NCBI GenBank assembly: GCA_947502595.1
Contig: CANNAM010000005.1
Coordinates: forward strand, 124,001-188,000
Length of the DNA stretch: 64,000 nucleotides
From: an uncultured Marinicella sp.
Lineage (GTDB): Bacteria; Pseudomonadota; Gammaproteobacteria; Xanthomonadales; Marinicellaceae
Direction of reading: 5' to 3'
Under the pieces are notes generated by a model. That model worked only from the letters and a program-made list of their open reading frames with translations, was not told the origin of the DNA and made no database searches. Made by a program: the position numbers and the translations under genes. Shown in pieces: positions 4,483-58,734 of the stretch. Numbering within the stretch: position 1 is the first letter of the stretch; each line of letters begins with the position of its first letter.

Positions 4483-5436
4483 TTACCTTTTGGTTAATGT
4501 TGCTTTGATATATTCTGCCATGGCTGTCGGCTCACCGTCAAACACGGACATTTTCAATTTCCTTACCTCCTCTGCGATGGCAGACACCACACAGCTTGAG
4601 GCGGATTGAGTGATGACTTTACCACCATTTTCAAACACATTGGTGGCGCCAATCACACCATCTTTGGCCATACCACTGAATATGGCTATATTGACCTTGT
4701 GTAAATTTTCTAGCATGTCAAAACACACATCATCTATACAAGGTGTATACATTCTTTTGGGGTTGATGTCCTTCACACCAATCACCCCATCGGCATTAAT
4801 CAGGATGTCTTCATCCACTGGAACCAAGATCGCTTGACCAGCTTGTAATTGATTACCTGACTGCGCCAATTTGACTGGAATTTGACCGTTCTTATCCAAT
4901 TGTTTCTGCATCATGGCCACAAACTCGCTGTCCATGTGTTGAACAATAATAAACAACACCGGCTCATCACCATTAAATTCACTTAAAAACTTAAGTAATG
5001 ATTCTGGCCCACCAATCGAGGCGGCCAAAATCCAAACAGATTCAATGCCATTTTGGCATAAGTCTACCCCAGCAACAGCCTCATTGCTGGATGAGACTGC
5101 TTTAGGCAATATTTCATTGGCTTGATCAATTTTATGCAGCACGTGCCTTAACCAACGGTTCTTATTCCACCCAACCAATTCATTACATATTCTGGCATCA
5201 TTAAATATCAGTTTGGCATCTTGCTTATTTAAATGCTGTATCAAGTCATCAATGTTGCTCTCATTATCAAACAAATTCAAAATAAAGGTTTGGATGTCAC
5301 CATCCAATTCCGTGAATTCGTCCTCACTGTATTGCTTTACTTCATAACCCGTCATTTGCAATTGTTTGATTAAGAATTGCGCTGAAGGTTGGGGTTCTCC
5401 AATATGGATCAACCCCACTATAGGTTGATCAGGCAT
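4483..5436 (-). CDS. chpB: CheB-like chemoreceptor methylesterase ChpB
   Basis: The 317-residue protein carries a C-terminal CheB methylesterase domain that would demethylate or deamidate glutamyl residues on PilJ. The catalytic triad is visible: Ser near residue 138 in AASIGGPE, His near 166 in VQHMDSEF, and Asp near 258 in SGMAKDGV. The N-terminal 120 residues look like a degenerate receiver, with no clear phospho-acceptor motif, as in other ChpB proteins. It overlaps the end of chpA by 8 bp. With PilK it forms the adaptation pair of this pathway. Confidence 0.9.
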   Translation of the reverse strand: MPDQPIVGLIHIGEPQPSAQFLIKQLQMTGYEVKQYSEDEFTELDGDIQTFILNLFDNESNIDDLIQHLNKQDAKLIFNDARICNELVGWNKNRWLRHVLHKIDQANEILPKAVSSSNEAVAGVDLCQNGIESVWILAASIGGPESLLKFLSEFNGDEPVLFIIVQHMDSEFVAMMQKQLDKNGQIPVKLAQSGNQLQAGQAILVPVDEDILINADGVIGVKDINPKRMYTPCIDDVCFDMLENLHKVNIAIFSGMAKDGVIGATNVFENGGKVITQSASSCVVSAIAEEVRKLKMSVFDGEPTAMAEYIKATLTKR

Positions 5437-8400
5437 CTTCTAATTGCAATAAATCTCTGATGTTATCCAATAATTCAAGCTCTTGATAAGGTTTACCTAA
5501 ATACCGCTCAACACCAATTTCTTTGGCACGGTCTTTGTGTTTCTGCCCGGTACGAGATGTGATCATGATAATTGGGATGTCTTTGAATTTATCAGACGCT
5601 TTCATGTTGGTTGCCAGCTCAAAGCCATCCATTCGTGGCATTTCAATATCCAACAACATCAGGTCAGGTTTTTGTTCCTGTAATTTATTCAATGCATCCA
5701 AACCGTCTTTGGCGGTCATCACCTCAAAATCATTCCTCGCCAACATCCGCTCTCCAGCTCGGCGCATGGTAATAGAGTCATCAACCACCATTATTGTGGT
5801 CATGCGGTCCTCTTCAACCTCAGCAACAACTTGCACACCTTCGGCTTCCATTTTCTCAAGTTTTTGCAAGTACGAACGGTGCATCGGGATGATATCCAAA
5901 ATCAATACCACTGCACCATCACCGAGAATTGTTGCACCAAAGATACCTGGCACAGAAGCCACTTGTGTACCCACAGACTTAACAACGATTTCTCGTCCAC
6001 CAAATGTTTGATCAACACGCAGAGCAACACCTTGGTCACCCGATTTAATCATCACCAACGGCACTTGATTGCCTTCGATCAAAGCTTCCGAATCAACACT
6101 AAGCAACTTATTCAGTTCTTGAACATGGTATTGTTCACCTGCATAGTCATAGGCCAAATCATTTTCTAATATACGGCGTCGGAACTCATCAATATTCATT
6201 CGAATCAAACCCTGTACACCAGAAGCAGGGATGGCATAGCGATGGTCTGCAACTTGTACAATAATCGCTTGGGTCAAGGCCAATGTATAAGGCAGGCGAA
6301 TCACGAATGTGGTGCCTTCACCTTTGGTAGAAATAATTTCAATGCTGCCACCTAAGCGTTTAATCTCGTTATTCACCACATCCATACCGACACCACGGCC
6401 AGCCAGTTTACTGACTTCATTGGCTGCCGATAAACCCGAATGAGTGATCAACTGGGTGATGTCGTGCTCCGACATTTTAAGGTTCTTATCAACTATGCCC
6501 CGCTCAATGGCTTTTTTGTGCAGTACTTCAGTGTTGATCCCGCCACCATCGTCCTTGACTGTTATGACTACCTCTGTTGCTTCACGGCTCAAACCAATAG
6601 AAATTTGTCCTTGCTCAGGCTTGTTGGCTTTTTTCCGATCTGCTTCAATGCCGTGCACCATGGCGTTTCTTATCATGTGTTCCAATGGTGCTTGTATGCC
6701 TTCAAGTACGGTTTTATCCATTTCACCTTCAGCGCCATTAACAGTTAATTTAGCGGTCTTATTAAGTTCTTGTCCTGAAGTTCGCAACACCCTTCTTAAC
6801 CTTGGAACCAGAGAGTTGAATGTCACCAAACGTGTTTCCATCAAACCTTCTTGCAATTCTGTATTTACCCTAGATTGCTGGATTAACAAAGTCTCAGAAG
6901 AACGTGCAGATTCTTGCAAATAAGTTTGAATATTGGTCAAATCCGAAACCGACTCTGACAATGAACGAGACAGTTGTTGGATGGTTGAAAATTGATCCAG
7001 TTCCAATGGATCAAAATCCTCTTCCAACTCATCACCCTCTGCTTGGTAGTTTGAAATAATTTGCGCTTCTGTTTCATGTTCTAACTCACGCAGTTGCCGT
7101 CTTACCCTTTCAACAGTATTTTCAAGCTCATCAATATTAAGTTTTAATTCAGCCGATTGTTGTTCCATACGTGACCGGTAAATACTCACCTCACCAGCAA
7201 AGTTCACCAACTTATCCAGCAATTCAGAGTTAACTTTAATTTGACCTCCAGACAATACATTGGCTTTTTTCTTAGGTGCCAAGGCTTCTTGAACGTTGCC
7301 AGAATCGTCTTTGTCTTCATCGACATCAGCCAAAGGTGAATCTACTTGAGCCAAAGGATCAAAAAACTCTTCATCAAGTTTTGATTTCTCTTTCAGCTCT
7401 GCACCTTCAGATGACAGCATAACTTCTAACTGCTCAGTCTCTTTATCAATACTGGTGGTCAGTCCATAATCATCTGAAGTAACCATGCCATGCAATTTAT
7501 GCATTATTTGTGACATCATTTCATGTTGATCTGGTTCTACGGCATTATGACTTTCAGCAATTGACTCAAACAATGACTCTAATTGGTGTGATAAATCACC
7601 AATTTGATGTAAACCAGCCATCCGCGCACCCCCTTTAAGGGTGTGTAAGTCACGTTGTAGCGCTTGAATAATTGATGGACTGTCTGGCTTTTCTTCTAAT
7701 TCAGCTAACAAATGGTCAGCTCGATCAAAAATTTCAGAGGCCTCTTCACTGAATATTTCAAGCAACTCTTCATCCAACTCAAGCTGTGATGCCTCAACAT
7801 TTTCTTTGGCAAGTTCAGCTTCAGTGTATTGCTGATAGGGTGCAGGTGCCGATTCATTTGCTCTCTCTTCAGCTGCGAGTTTTGCTGCTGCTTTGGCTTC
7901 GGCTTCGGCTTCGGCTGCTGCTTCGGCTTCTGCTGCTGCTTTGGCTTCGGCTTCGGCTTCGGCTTCGGCTGCTGCTTCTGCTTCTGCTTTGGCTTCGGCT
8001 TCGGCTGCTGCTTCGGCTGCTGCTGCTTCGGCTGCTGCTTCGGCTGCTGCTTTGGCTTCGGCTTCGGCTTCAGCTTCGGCTGCTGCTTCGGCTTCGGCTT
8101 CGGCTGCTGCTTCAGCTGAGTCATCAGCTACATTATTTTCAGAATCTGAATCACTTGTATCACCAATATCTGCCAGATCTATATCCGATAGGTCAAAATC
8201 TTCATCAAGCAAATTACTGGCTACAGCCAAATCTTCTGCGTCTTTAATTTCTTCAATCGAGGCATTCAATTCATTGATTCGCCCAACAAAATATGCACCA
8301 ATACTTTCATCTACAGTACTGGTTCCTGTACCTAACAAATTGAGTTCAGTTTTTGCGTGCTTGACAACAGCTTCAATGTGCTCTAAATCATCGTCACTTA

Positions 8401-56171: not shown

Positions 56172-56201
56172 TTTACATATGTATTTTGTTACTCCTATAA
56201 T
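56172..56201 (+). promoter_or_regulatory. Sigma-70 promoter of the EAL-DUF6502-EGTG unit
   Basis: TTTACA (56172-56177, 5 of 6) and a perfect TATAAT (56196-56201) are 18 bp apart. Transcription would begin near 56208, only 14 bp before the first ATG (56222), so the leader is very short and lacks a ribosome site. Confidence 0.75.
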
Positions 56202-56221
56202 AAACCTGTTCAATCTTGACC

Positions 56222-56926
56222 ATGTTTATGAATTTAGCCGCTTTCAAATCTACAATCCGACAGAAACTGAATTTCCAGTTTCAAGGCATTGTCGATGCTG
56301 ATGCAAAATCACAAAAATGGATTGAGATGCTATACAGACCGCAACACATGCTGGGTTATCAAAATGTAGATTTGTTCTTCAAATCCCTAACAACACAACA
56401 GAAAGTAGACTTAGACATCCAAATTTTCAATCAACTGCCTCAGGTACTGAAAACAAAGAAACCGAATAGATTGAGTGTTAATTTAATGCCTCTGAGCTTA
56501 CTAAGTAATGAGTTCAGAAATAATTTAACTGATTTACTTGATCATCAATTAATCAACCCGCAAAACATCTGTATAGAGATTATAGAAATACATTCAATGC
56601 CCTCATTGTGTAACAGCGCAATTGATCTGTTGAAACGTTTCAGGTCAGAAGGTGGATGGATCGCATTAGATGATTTTGGTTCCGGTTTTGCTCATTGGGA
56701 GTTACTACAAATTGGCTTAATAGATGTGTTGAAAGTAGCTAACCAAAACTTATCCAAAAACCATGAAACAACGTCATTTACGAGAGGTTTGGCAGAATTT
56801 GCTCAATCAATGGGCATCAGTACCGTACTTGAAGGGGTCGAAACAATCACAGACTTTGAAAAAGGCAAAAAACAAGGCTACCAAAATTTTCAAGGTTGGT
56901 ATTTTGATAAAGGGAGTGTGGCATGA
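56222..56926 (+). CDS. EAL-domain protein (c-di-GMP phosphodiesterase-like)
   Basis: The roughly 234-residue stand-alone EAL domain, without sensor or TM segment. Motifs from the N-terminus (residues counted from 56216): E-M-L in WIEMLYRP (37-39) in place of EAL; SVNLMP with Asn89; IEIIE (Glu121/124); LDDFGSGFAH (Asp152-Asp153); Lys173; LEGVET (Glu206); FQGWYFDKG (Gln226). The metal and catalytic ligands of active EAL enzymes are present, so it may hydrolyse c-di-GMP. Its TGA overlaps the next ATG (ATGA). A promoter lies immediately upstream. Confidence 0.85.
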   Translation: MFMNLAAFKSTIRQKLNFQFQGIVDADAKSQKWIEMLYRPQHMLGYQNVDLFFKSLTTQQKVDLDIQIFNQLPQVLKTKKPNRLSVNLMPLSLLSNEFRNNLTDLLDHQLINPQNICIEIIEIHSMPSLCNSAIDLLKRFRSEGGWIALDDFGSGFAHWELLQIGLIDVLKVANQNLSKNHETTSFTRGLAEFAQSMGISTVLEGVETITDFEKGKKQGYQNFQGWYFDKGSVA

Positions 56927-57759
56927 GTCAATTTAAACAAAATTCAACCAGTTTATCATTTGATATTTACTGGTTAGGTTTTATCAGAACCTGTATGCGA
57001 CCACTGGTCAGAATACTGGTCAAGCAGAAAGTAGAGTTCAATTCATTTCAAAACTTAGTGAGAGAACTGTTTGTTGAAGAAGCTGAAAAGCACATTGAAA
57101 ACACCACTGAAAACAGTCGCGGTAAAATTTCTTCAATTGCCTACCAAACTGGATTAGATCGCAGGGAAGTTTCAAAAATATTAAAACAACAATCATCAGA
57201 ATCAGATTGGGTTGAACACAATAGATCCAGAGAGTCAAACATTTTAGATCACTGGTATTCACACCCTCCTTTTTGCGAGAAGCCAGGTAAACCCGTGGCA
57301 TTAAAAAGAAGCGGGAAAGGTTTGTCATTTGAAACATTGACACAAAAATTCGGCAAAAACATCAGCCATGGCCCCATCTTAGAAGCATTCCTAGAATCTG
57401 AGTGTATTGAAATTAAAGATGGTTTGGTGCACTTAATAGACCGATCGTTCACACCAAAACTATCAACCAACCCAACTAAAATTGAAGTCGCTGCCAATTC
57501 GATCAAGCGGCTAACTGCAACCATTGAGCATAATTTTGAAAATGATTTGGATTTAAATTTTCAAAGGAATTTATTCTCAATCAAAATACCCAAACAACAC
57601 AAGCAACAATTCAAAGATGAAATCAGTGCGCTGATGCGACACCATTACCACCATACTTTTATACCTGAATTCGAATCAATAGAAAAAAAGTATGCAAGCA
57701 TTAATGTACCGAAAACTGAATCAAGAATTGGCTTAGGGTTCTTTTACTTTGAAGATTAA
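56923..57759 (+). CDS. DUF6502 family protein
   Basis: The 278-residue cytoplasmic protein fits DUF6502, a family of unknown function: GFIRTCMRPLVRILVKQKVEF and FQNLVRELFVEEAEKH at the N-terminus, then RGKISSIAYQTGLDRREVSKIL, which looks like a helix-turn-helix (about residues 66-88), and ILDHWYSHPPFC. The C-terminal half is less conserved and His-rich (RHHYHHTF). DNA binding is suggested by the HTH only. It is translationally coupled to the EAL gene and 25 bp before the EGTG gene, making one operon. Confidence 0.75.
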   Translation: MSQFKQNSTSLSFDIYWLGFIRTCMRPLVRILVKQKVEFNSFQNLVRELFVEEAEKHIENTTENSRGKISSIAYQTGLDRREVSKILKQQSSESDWVEHNRSRESNILDHWYSHPPFCEKPGKPVALKRSGKGLSFETLTQKFGKNISHGPILEAFLESECIEIKDGLVHLIDRSFTPKLSTNPTKIEVAANSIKRLTATIEHNFENDLDLNFQRNLFSIKIPKQHKQQFKDEISALMRHHYHHTFIPEFESIEKKYASINVPKTESRIGLGFFYFED

Positions 57760-57784
57760 TAAATCAAAACACTGGAGAAATAAA

Positions 57785-58519
57785 ATGAGATTGGCAGAAA
57801 CCGAAGGCACTGGAATACAAAATAAGGCAGAAACTGAAGGAACCGGCATCCGTAATTTTGCTGAAACTGAGGGCACTGGCATCCGAAGTTTAGCTGAAAC
57901 TGAAGGCACCGGCATCAGCCAGAAAATCAGTAAATACCTGACTCATTCAATGTTACTTTTGCTATTGACAGTGCAAGTTGCTGCGGCTGATGAAGTACGT
58001 TTGTATTCAACTGACAATCATTATGTAAAAGGTATTTACGTTAATTCAAACGGACAATCTCACTTTGTCGAAGGCTTGCTAGAAGGCCAGTCAATTTCAT
58101 TGTTGGCGCAAGAATCATTGCTTCAGGAACAAAACATATTGAATAACAACACAGATGATGCATCCGATGAAGGCACAGGAGGCGGAACGGTTAATGCATC
58201 TGATGAAGGTACCGGGGGTGTAACTGTTAATGCATCTGATGAAGGTACTGGAGGCGTGGCTGTAAACGCTTCTGACGAGGGTACTGGAGGTGTGGCTGTG
58301 AACGCATCTGACGAGGGCACTGGAGGCGCAAGTGTTGATGCCTCAGATGAAGGCACTGGTGGGGTTAATACAGAAAGCACATTAACATTAAATTTAAATT
58401 GTGCCTCAGAACAGTCAACCGGCAGCATTCAAGAGGGATTGCACAGTACAGCGATTAATCAGCTACAAATATATTTAAACGATCAATTATTGACTTGTAA
58501 CAACGATTCAAATCAATAA
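57785..58519 (+). CDS. EGTG-repeat membrane or secreted protein
   Basis: No known family is recognised. The 244-residue protein has GGAG 7 bases before its ATG. Residues 4-47 are four 11-residue repeats (AETEGTGIQNK type). One hydrophobic segment lies at about 50-68 (LTHSMLLLLLTVQVAAA), followed by a short mixed region (DEVRLYSTDNHYVKGIYVN). Residues 126-197 are six 12-residue repeats (ASDEGTGGVAVN type). The tail has two Cys (206 and 238). EGTG occurs ten times, four before and six after the hydrophobic segment. It could be anchored, or cleaved after AAA so that the first repeats stay as an odd signal peptide. Confidence 0.8.
   Translation: MRLAETEGTGIQNKAETEGTGIRNFAETEGTGIRSLAETEGTGISQKISKYLTHSMLLLLLTVQVAAADEVRLYSTDNHYVKGIYVNSNGQSHFVEGLLEGQSISLLAQESLLQEQNILNNNTDDASDEGTGGGTVNASDEGTGGVTVNASDEGTGGVAVNASDEGTGGVAVNASDEGTGGASVDASDEGTGGVNTESTLTLNLNCASEQSTGSIQEGLHSTAINQLQIYLNDQLLTCNNDSNQ
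57794..57925 (+). repeat. Four 33-bp tandem repeats (AETEGTGI)
   Basis: Each unit encodes A-E-T-E-G-T-G-I plus three variable residues (QNK, RNF, RSL, SQK). DNA copies differ at synonymous positions (GAAGGCACT, GAAGGAACC, GAGGGCACT), so selection seems to hold the peptide rather than recent duplication. Confidence 0.9.
58160..58375 (+). repeat. Six 36-bp tandem repeats (ASDEGTGG)
   Basis: Each unit encodes A-S-D-E-G-T-G-G plus four residues (GTVN, VTVN, VAVN, VAVN, ASVD, VNTE). Copies show many silent changes (GATGAAGGT, GACGAGGGT, GATGAAGGC). The antisense frame is also open but is a by-product. Confidence 0.9.
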
Positions 58520-58696: not shown

Positions 58697-58734
58697 GGCA
58701 TGTCTCACACACACGCACACACACTAGACATGCC
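58697..58734. other. Inverted repeat with a CA-rich loop
   Basis: GGCATGTCT (58697-58705) and AGACATGCC (58726-58734) are perfect 9-bp complements flanking a 20-base loop of CA dinucleotides with one G. It ends 2 bp before the mazG stop. No T-run follows either way. Another short CA run is at about 58550. It may be a terminator-like hairpin or a protein-binding site for the convergent genes. Confidence 0.75.

Follow-up and report, generated by a model that had tools for sequence, protein, structure and literature searches.

The window analysed here is a 64,000-nucleotide stretch of DNA from an uncultured Marinicella sp. (contig CANNAM010000005.1, positions 124,001 to 188,000). Within it a promoter is followed by genes for an EAL-domain protein, a DUF6502 protein and an exported protein carrying EGTG repeats, which together constitute an operon in Marinicella (Table 1). 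The first two genes overlap by 4 bp (ATGA, 56923-56926), the second and third are separated by 25 bp, and a GGAG precedes the ATG of the third gene at 57785. The EAL open reading frame (ORF), with its stop at 56926, has candidate ATG codons at 56222 and 56228; the ORF finder picks a TTG at 56216. An earlier note on this DNA gave 56172 as the start of the feature, a position which marks the -35 box and not the start of a gene. The operon is flanked on the plus strand by a secA-mutT pair on one side and mazG on the other (secA and mazG were named by eye, and the mutT product is NUDIX by Pfam). No terminator-like site was found on the plus strand between 55900 and 58800. A short CA-dinucleotide run is present at 58706-58724, between the operon and mazG.

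Table 1. Features of the operon, in positions of the window.
Feature	Position	Strand	Remarks
Promoter	56172..56201	+	-35 TTTACA at 56172, 18-nt spacer, -10 TATAAT ending at 56201
Candidate operator, 26-bp imperfect palindrome AAACCTGTTCAATCTTGACCATGTTT	56202..56227	.	abuts the -10 box and overlaps the first possible EAL start codon
EAL-domain protein gene	56222-56926	+	234 aa; 232 aa if the start is 56228; no attached sensor domain
DUF6502 protein gene	56923-57759	+	278 aa; candidate DNA-binding autoregulator
Helix-turn-helix-like stretch of DUF6502, residues 66-90	57118..57192	+	AlphaFold2 (AF2) helices and a weak IS21 match
Bipartite GTG-array exported protein gene	57785-58519	+	244 aa
Pre-signal array, four AETEGTGI units, 11-residue spacing	57794..57916	+	repeat detection, codon comparison
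Signal peptide or N-in membrane segment	57917..57988	+	cleavage expected near AAA|DE, site read by eye
First half of small beta domain, strands within residues 69-109	57989..58111	+	AF2 block, predicted local distance difference test (pLDDT) about 77-87
Mature-part array, six ASDEGTGG units, 12-residue spacing	58158..58359	+	low-pLDDT stretch, residues 111-195
Second half of beta domain, strands within residues 198-231	58376..58477	+	AF2 block, pLDDT about 62-79

The array protein and its DUF6502 neighbour

The repeats of the third product form two arrays split by a hydrophobic export segment, an arrangement that had been missed when the protein was first described as an EGTG-repeat protein of no known family. 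Both arrays were detected by Tandem Repeats Finder (57797-57916, period 33; 58158-58359, period 36), the hydropathy maximum of the protein runs from residue 55, and the AF2 model has a helix at residues 46-60; the protein is very probably exported through Sec. Mean pLDDT of the model was 54, with low confidence over residues 1-45 and 111-195, and the mature array is probably disordered. A Foldseek search of the model against PDB returned nothing at E <= 0.001. Cys 206 lies inside the second beta half and Cys 238 just past it, and among ten relatives C238 was invariant and C206 nearly so. An adhesion role for the protein is possible.

When the 8-residue cores in the window were compared in pairs, every codon difference was synonymous, 23 in the pre-signal array and 72 in the mature array; these counts are not independent, since shared history is counted many times. 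Synonymous differences also exceeded non-synonymous ones in every comparable array of nine homologues. Differences of this kind indicate that the peptide of the arrays has been kept while the DNA drifts.

The absence of a known family held up: for the window protein Pfam gave no convincing family (best E 0.02, under its cut-off) and NCBIfam none, and no convincing family was found in either database for the array homologues scanned, hence membership of a known repeat family was rejected. Relatives were found in other families of the order; families are labelled here f1, f5 and so on. Those of f8 and f9 carry a heptad EKSGTGI (or ERDGTGI, GKSGTGI) in about 2-7 copies right before the signal peptide; their mature parts have units of the kind VAGGGTGVQ or VAGSGSG. 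Units of the GTG type (G, then T or S, then G or D) stood on both sides of the hydrophobic segment in 47 of 48 proteins, the exception (L243) being an antisense artefact; the 48 were picked by a match to the array profile or by at least four GTG-like units, so that units ahead of the segment are partly there by construction. The proteins of L039, L040 and L136 lie outside this set.

To follow the arrays across the order, we searched 398 genomes with a profile (A5, 16 rows) that covers the pre-signal array and the signal peptide, and 104 of them gave a match at E <= 0.01. The 34 strongest matches (at least 45 bits, one per genome) fell in f8 (20) and f9 (14), and each of the 34 follows a same-strand DUF6502 gene at a distance of -4 to 145 bp. 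There is partial circularity in this count, 22 of the 34 loci having been first found via DUF6502 and 16 of these having built A5. The remaining 12 loci were found by the array profile alone, and DUF6502 was present in 12/12; in nine of these genomes Pfam had given no DUF6502 match, and there the gene was found with profiles made from newly collected sequences. An EAL gene lay upstream in 13 of the 14 strong array loci of f9, the remaining one being at a contig end, and in 0/20 of f8. In 70 of the 104 genomes the match fell short of about 44 bits; such matches were set aside as low complexity and are mostly unread. Many were in f2, f3 and f12, in several overlapping frames, and some in f9 are real arrays (G430, G502, G577, G581). 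A weak match in the window's own genome, at L243, was discarded, there being no array gene at that place.

The association with DUF6502 extends beyond the arrays. A same-strand downstream neighbour was available for 161 DUF6502 genes; 36 of these neighbours match A5, and of the 125 that do not, 83 have GTG in the first 150 residues, as against 54 of 814 control ORFs, a set that includes spurious ORFs. With EAL-linked and other known array loci left out the figure was 72/109. The DUF6502 neighbours are mutually related, and the excess of GTG is thus an association and not an independent test. Of 13 example neighbours, five lack GTG altogether, and in another five it closely follows a lipobox-like cysteine. 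The earlier note had linked DUF6502 genes to DUF5666 proteins with GIGGTG-type motifs, and these frequent GTG-bearing neighbours support the link; the only two neighbours scanned for DUF5666, both in the window's genome (L043, L044), were positive. That genome has two further DUF6502 genes, each followed by a DUF5666 protein (L043 2344-3837, minus strand; L044 5175-6716, plus strand).

The EAL gene and conservation of the block

The triad mostly acts as a block that is present or absent between mutT and mazG. In the genus sample of 18 Marinicella genomes it was complete in nine besides that of the window (L032-L036, L037, L038, L039, L041) and interrupted by a contig end in L040 and L042, which brings the total to 12/18. 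A search with the DUF6502 alignment gave ten loci, of which the named ones are from M. sediminis (78% identity), M. marina, M. litoralis and M. meishanensis, which places the window's genome with Marinicella. When the EAL protein was searched for, a match at E <= 1e-30 was obtained in 11/18 genomes, all of them triad carriers, and the twelfth carrier (G006) has a truncated copy. mazG was located in five of the six genomes lacking the triad. In three (G001, G002, G011) secA, mutT and mazG lie side by side as an empty site, the G008 locus stops just past mazG, and G007 has a lone array gene beside mazG at the end of the locus; in G015 mazG was searched for and not found.

Outside the genus the order EAL-DUF6502-array was found in three other families: f5 (L129, and L192 with a single pre-signal motif), f6 (L136, one genome) and f9 (L135, L164, L166, L169, L176, L183, L190, L244-L246, L248, L249, L251, L252, L256-L259). 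These loci are not independent, several being near-identical, and contig ends cut some of them. The earlier note had proposed that the three genes are co-expressed as one operon, a proposal to be dropped if they were conserved together in no other genome; our genome search found the order recurring in Marinicella and in the three other families, and the proposal stands. In f8, DUF6502 and the array gene are found with no EAL neighbour detected. The EAL gene is a dispensable member of the unit, a point absent from the earlier note, and the core consists of DUF6502 and the array protein.

The EAL protein matched Pfam PF00563 with an E of 3.2e-29 (102 bits, cut-off 31), and a profile of 12 EAL relatives matched 47 distinct PDB sequences at E <= 1e-5. 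Residues of RocR for catalysis, substrate and metal binding are assigned in PMC7911125, and the places of RocR Q161, E175, R179, N233, E265, D295, D296 and E352 correspond to Q21, E35, R39, N87, E119, D150, D151 and E204 of the window protein, as assigned by eye from motifs. Thirty-four EAL rows adjoining DUF6502 were then compared, the window protein being counted twice (window, L001). The places of N233, E265, D295, D296 and E352 were retained in 34/34 rows and those of E175 and R179 in 29/29 (five rows were cut off), and that of Q161 in 27/29. The claim that the catalytic residues are kept was therefore borne out, in the window and in the aligned EAL proteins, and to judge by these residues the protein may well be active as a phosphodiesterase. 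In G454 (L200/L144) an EAL gene also precedes a DUF6502 gene of the other clade, so the association with EAL may have had more than one origin.

The operon start and the DUF6502 protein

The promoter scores 11/12 consensus positions. Promoter-like sites in general numbered 8 against 8.4 expected in shuffles, and a bare consensus match says little for a promoter that the earlier note had called clear. Its support comes from conservation. TTTACA was identical in 9/9 aligned Marinicella upstream regions and the -10 box was retained as an ATAAT core; the DNA further upstream has diverged across these nine genomes, and the retention of TTTACA, the ATAAT core and about 30 bp beyond amid such divergence supports a real promoter.

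The retained block after the -10 box, AAACCTGTTCAATnTTGACCATGTTTATGA, shows only single-base differences in the nine upstream regions and contains an imperfect palindrome, AAACmTGkTCAA-nn-TTGAmCAkGTTT, overlapping the start site, which the earlier note did not mention. Ten of its 13 pairs are symmetric in the window, a degree reached by random AT-rich 26-mers in about 0.1% of draws (figure per position). The palindrome is kept in L041, where the ATG inside it is out of frame with an EAL gene that starts further on, and in L039, where that ATG is AGG, so that it is not accounted for by coding constraint. With up to 3 mismatches allowed, it was the sole match both in the window and in the 3.2-Mb genome, and a single genomic site fits a local regulator. 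A different palindrome, TTGCCA-N4-TGGCAA (up to 1 mismatch), was found around the EAL start in 12 of 19 f9 loci, with 15 sites in 7,600 bp around that start vs 0 in the other 116,194 bp of the loci; this motif was picked after some f9 loci had been seen, and some of these loci are near-identical. A local autoregulator should have a palindromic operator at its own promoter, and the sequence offers a candidate operator there. The Marinicella and f9 palindromes suggest local autoregulation, with DUF6502 as the best candidate binder, and on balance we expect that DUF6502 does bind the palindrome.

In three f9 loci (L135, L244, L246) two operator-like palindromes near the EAL start are spaced by 32 bp, or roughly three turns of the helix. 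Six f8 loci (L127, L157, L160, L163, L167, L254) have a hairpin near the DUF6502 start with a similar AGGGCA-like loop and stems that differ but are complementary; it sits upstream of, or just within, the called DUF6502 ORF and is possibly an RNA element.

The DUF6502 protein matched PF20112 with an E of 6.7e-25 (87.9 bits, cut-off 27) over profile positions 9-262 of 268. Its AF2 model has helices at residues 68-76 and 80-89, at low confidence, and a weak match to IS21 transposase covers residues 68-113 (E 0.04). With this helix-turn-helix-like stretch and the local palindrome at the promoter, the regulatory role which had been raised as possible now appears likely. In a search of a defence-system library the only match, PD-T4-6 (E 0.012), was not accepted. 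Of the 370 genomes sampled from the class, 100 have DUF6502. In a quick tree of 130 DUF6502 proteins one clade of 56 rows, with a Shimodaira-Hasegawa-like approximate likelihood ratio test (SH-aLRT) support of 97, takes in 23/24 EAL-linked and 18/18 array-pair rows (three of the latter, L129_2569, L132_1593 and L192_3318, being labelled by locus and not by their own neighbour), and the window protein falls within it.

A possible feedback mechanism and its alternatives

We propose that the three genes form one autoregulated operon, the output of which would be the exported bipartite array protein. DUF6502 would bind the palindrome at the transcription start and control the operon. On synthesis of the array protein its first GTG array, which precedes the signal peptide, would lie in the cytoplasm, and export would take the second array, held on the small beta domain, out of the cytoplasm. 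By recognising the cytoplasmic array DUF6502 would allow unexported precursor to feed back on transcription, and the EAL protein, where present, would lower or read cyclic di-GMP (c-di-GMP) and couple this control to the sessile or motile state. Three points lead us to propose the array as a signal of export status: the first array stays in the cytoplasm up to export and perhaps beyond it, the two arrays share a GTG core, and DUF6502 accompanies two kinds of GTG-bearing exported proteins.

This model as a whole is put forward tentatively. That the array is the ligand of DUF6502 we consider doubtful, and it is unlikely that the system amounts to a secretion-status sensor in which unexported GTG repeats occupy DUF6502 and alter how the operon is transcribed, with a c-di-GMP enzyme as the gate. 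In such a sensor the GTG motif of DUF5666 and other DUF6502 neighbours could be a simpler version of the same code, which likewise seems to us rather unlikely. A further reading, in which the neighbouring secA pointed to a sec-linked secretion monitor, was dropped; the f8 pair sits among other genes, as seen by eye. For DUF6502 the work provides a concrete partner, the GTG-bearing exported proteins, and a candidate DNA site, which makes its function directly testable. The layout, a signal peptide flanked on either side by the same short core, matched no family found in Pfam or NCBIfam; it suggests that signal-peptide extensions can carry information, and it may let the cell sense whether the array protein has been exported.

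Several observations weigh against the proposed model. It is built on sequence and predicted structure, from which both the contact of DUF6502 with the array and its DNA binding are inferred. The AF2 model of DUF6502 was poor (pLDDT 56, predicted template modelling score 0.27, from an alignment of 11 Marinicella-type sequences). Its Foldseek search against PDB gave nothing at E <= 0.001, and a PDB sequence search with two DUF6502 profiles gave no convincing relative, the best matches being ribosomal protein S17 (E 0.004, profile positions 192-267) and, for the other profile, one at 0.097. A single operator common to all lineages was sought and none was found: the Marinicella and f9 palindromes differ, and the f9 motif was absent from the 19 f8 and three f5/f6 loci searched. 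In the DUF6502 tree 15 of the 56 rows of the array clade have no recognised array neighbour, and one EAL-linked row lies outside it. With regard to the EAL protein, the aspartate of the KID motif is replaced by A173 in the window protein (KVA instead of KID), and over the 34 rows this position is A in 12 (all Marinicella), D in 21 and H in 1. This aspartate is usual in active EAL enzymes and was not treated as defining. One Marinicella genome (G010) has two extra EAL homologues (L268 3118-3798, minus strand; L269 3257-3973, plus strand) with no DUF6502 or array gene within the fetched stretch.

The main rival makes DUF6502 a dedicated cytosolic partner (a chaperone, export pilot or modifying factor) that recognises the GTG motifs of export-bound proteins, the palindromes then serving another regulator. 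It agrees well with the conservation of the arrays as peptide and with the position of DUF6502 beside two kinds of exported GTG proteins, the bipartite arrays and proteins whose GGTG-type motifs lie close to the export signal, two of these proteins having been confirmed as DUF5666. The helix-turn-helix-like stretch speaks against it, and a lineage-specific palindrome at the operon start in two lineages, that of Marinicella being unique in the window's genome, favours a local regulator, so that we regard such a partner as unlikely.

Somewhat less probable still is an ordinary c-di-GMP-linked surface or matrix protein, whose mature array would be adhesive or a spacer and whose pre-signal array would merely slow export, DUF6502 being a simple local regulator that never contacts the array. 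The mature array, which appears disordered, the small beta domain that holds it and the conserved Cys pair would suit such a protein, as would the EAL neighbour in four families. There is a precedent in the extended signal peptide region (ESPR) of type V secretion proteins, a conserved extension of 25 residues (PF13018) for which a slowing of export has in some cases been proposed (PMC8151025). Left unexplained are the GTG core common to the pre-signal and mature arrays, the presence of DUF6502 beside every strong array match and the GTG motif in its other neighbours. Finally, the EAL protein could be a ligand or co-regulator of DUF6502 that senses c-di-GMP and acts by direct contact, as in a trigger enzyme, with the array as output only; the ATGA overlap of the two genes, the restriction of close EAL homologues (E <= 1e-30) to triad-bearing Marinicella genomes and the replaced KID aspartate fit this, but f8 has DUF6502 and array with no detected EAL neighbour and the tested metal ligands are retained as in active enzymes, which makes it very improbable.

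When compared with known systems, the proposed DUF6502-array core appears to be without a described counterpart, and its novelty is one of architecture rather than of demonstrated function. In the literature searched, which held few subscription journals, DUF6502 was unnamed and no function was found in print, and neither the six repeat peptides nor repeated long signal peptides were found. The array protein resembles ESPR proteins in that a long extension precedes a signal peptide of otherwise normal make-up (PMC8151025), but differs in its tandem GTG array, the core recurring in the mature part, the adjacent DUF6502 gene and the lack of a Pfam autotransporter match; PF13018 was not listed for the window protein or eight homologues. 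EAL domains are already well known, and the window protein shares the Pfam domain and the RocR active-site places with the phosphodiesterases RocR, MorA and BlrP1, from which it is set apart by standing alone with no sensor, by KVA in place of KID and by an operon with DUF6502 and the array protein.

The window DUF6502 is like other members of PF20112 in its nearly full-length match and in adjoining exported GTG proteins, as is often so elsewhere in the class, and unlike them in belonging to a separate array/EAL clade. DUF5666 proteins with GIGGTG or GGTG motifs adjoin DUF6502, have GTG in the N-terminal part and in several cases look lipoprotein-like by eye, but the DUF5666 neighbours read have no tandem array ahead of the signal peptide. 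PF18914 (DUF5666) was not listed for the window array protein (E up to 10) or for eight array homologues (E up to 1). A further kind of repeat protein was seen at L142, where an ORF downstream of two DUF6502 genes (5264-5857, plus strand) has a signal-like N-terminus and many GISVGD repeats, and a second ORF (5917-6357, plus strand) continues the GISVGD motif.

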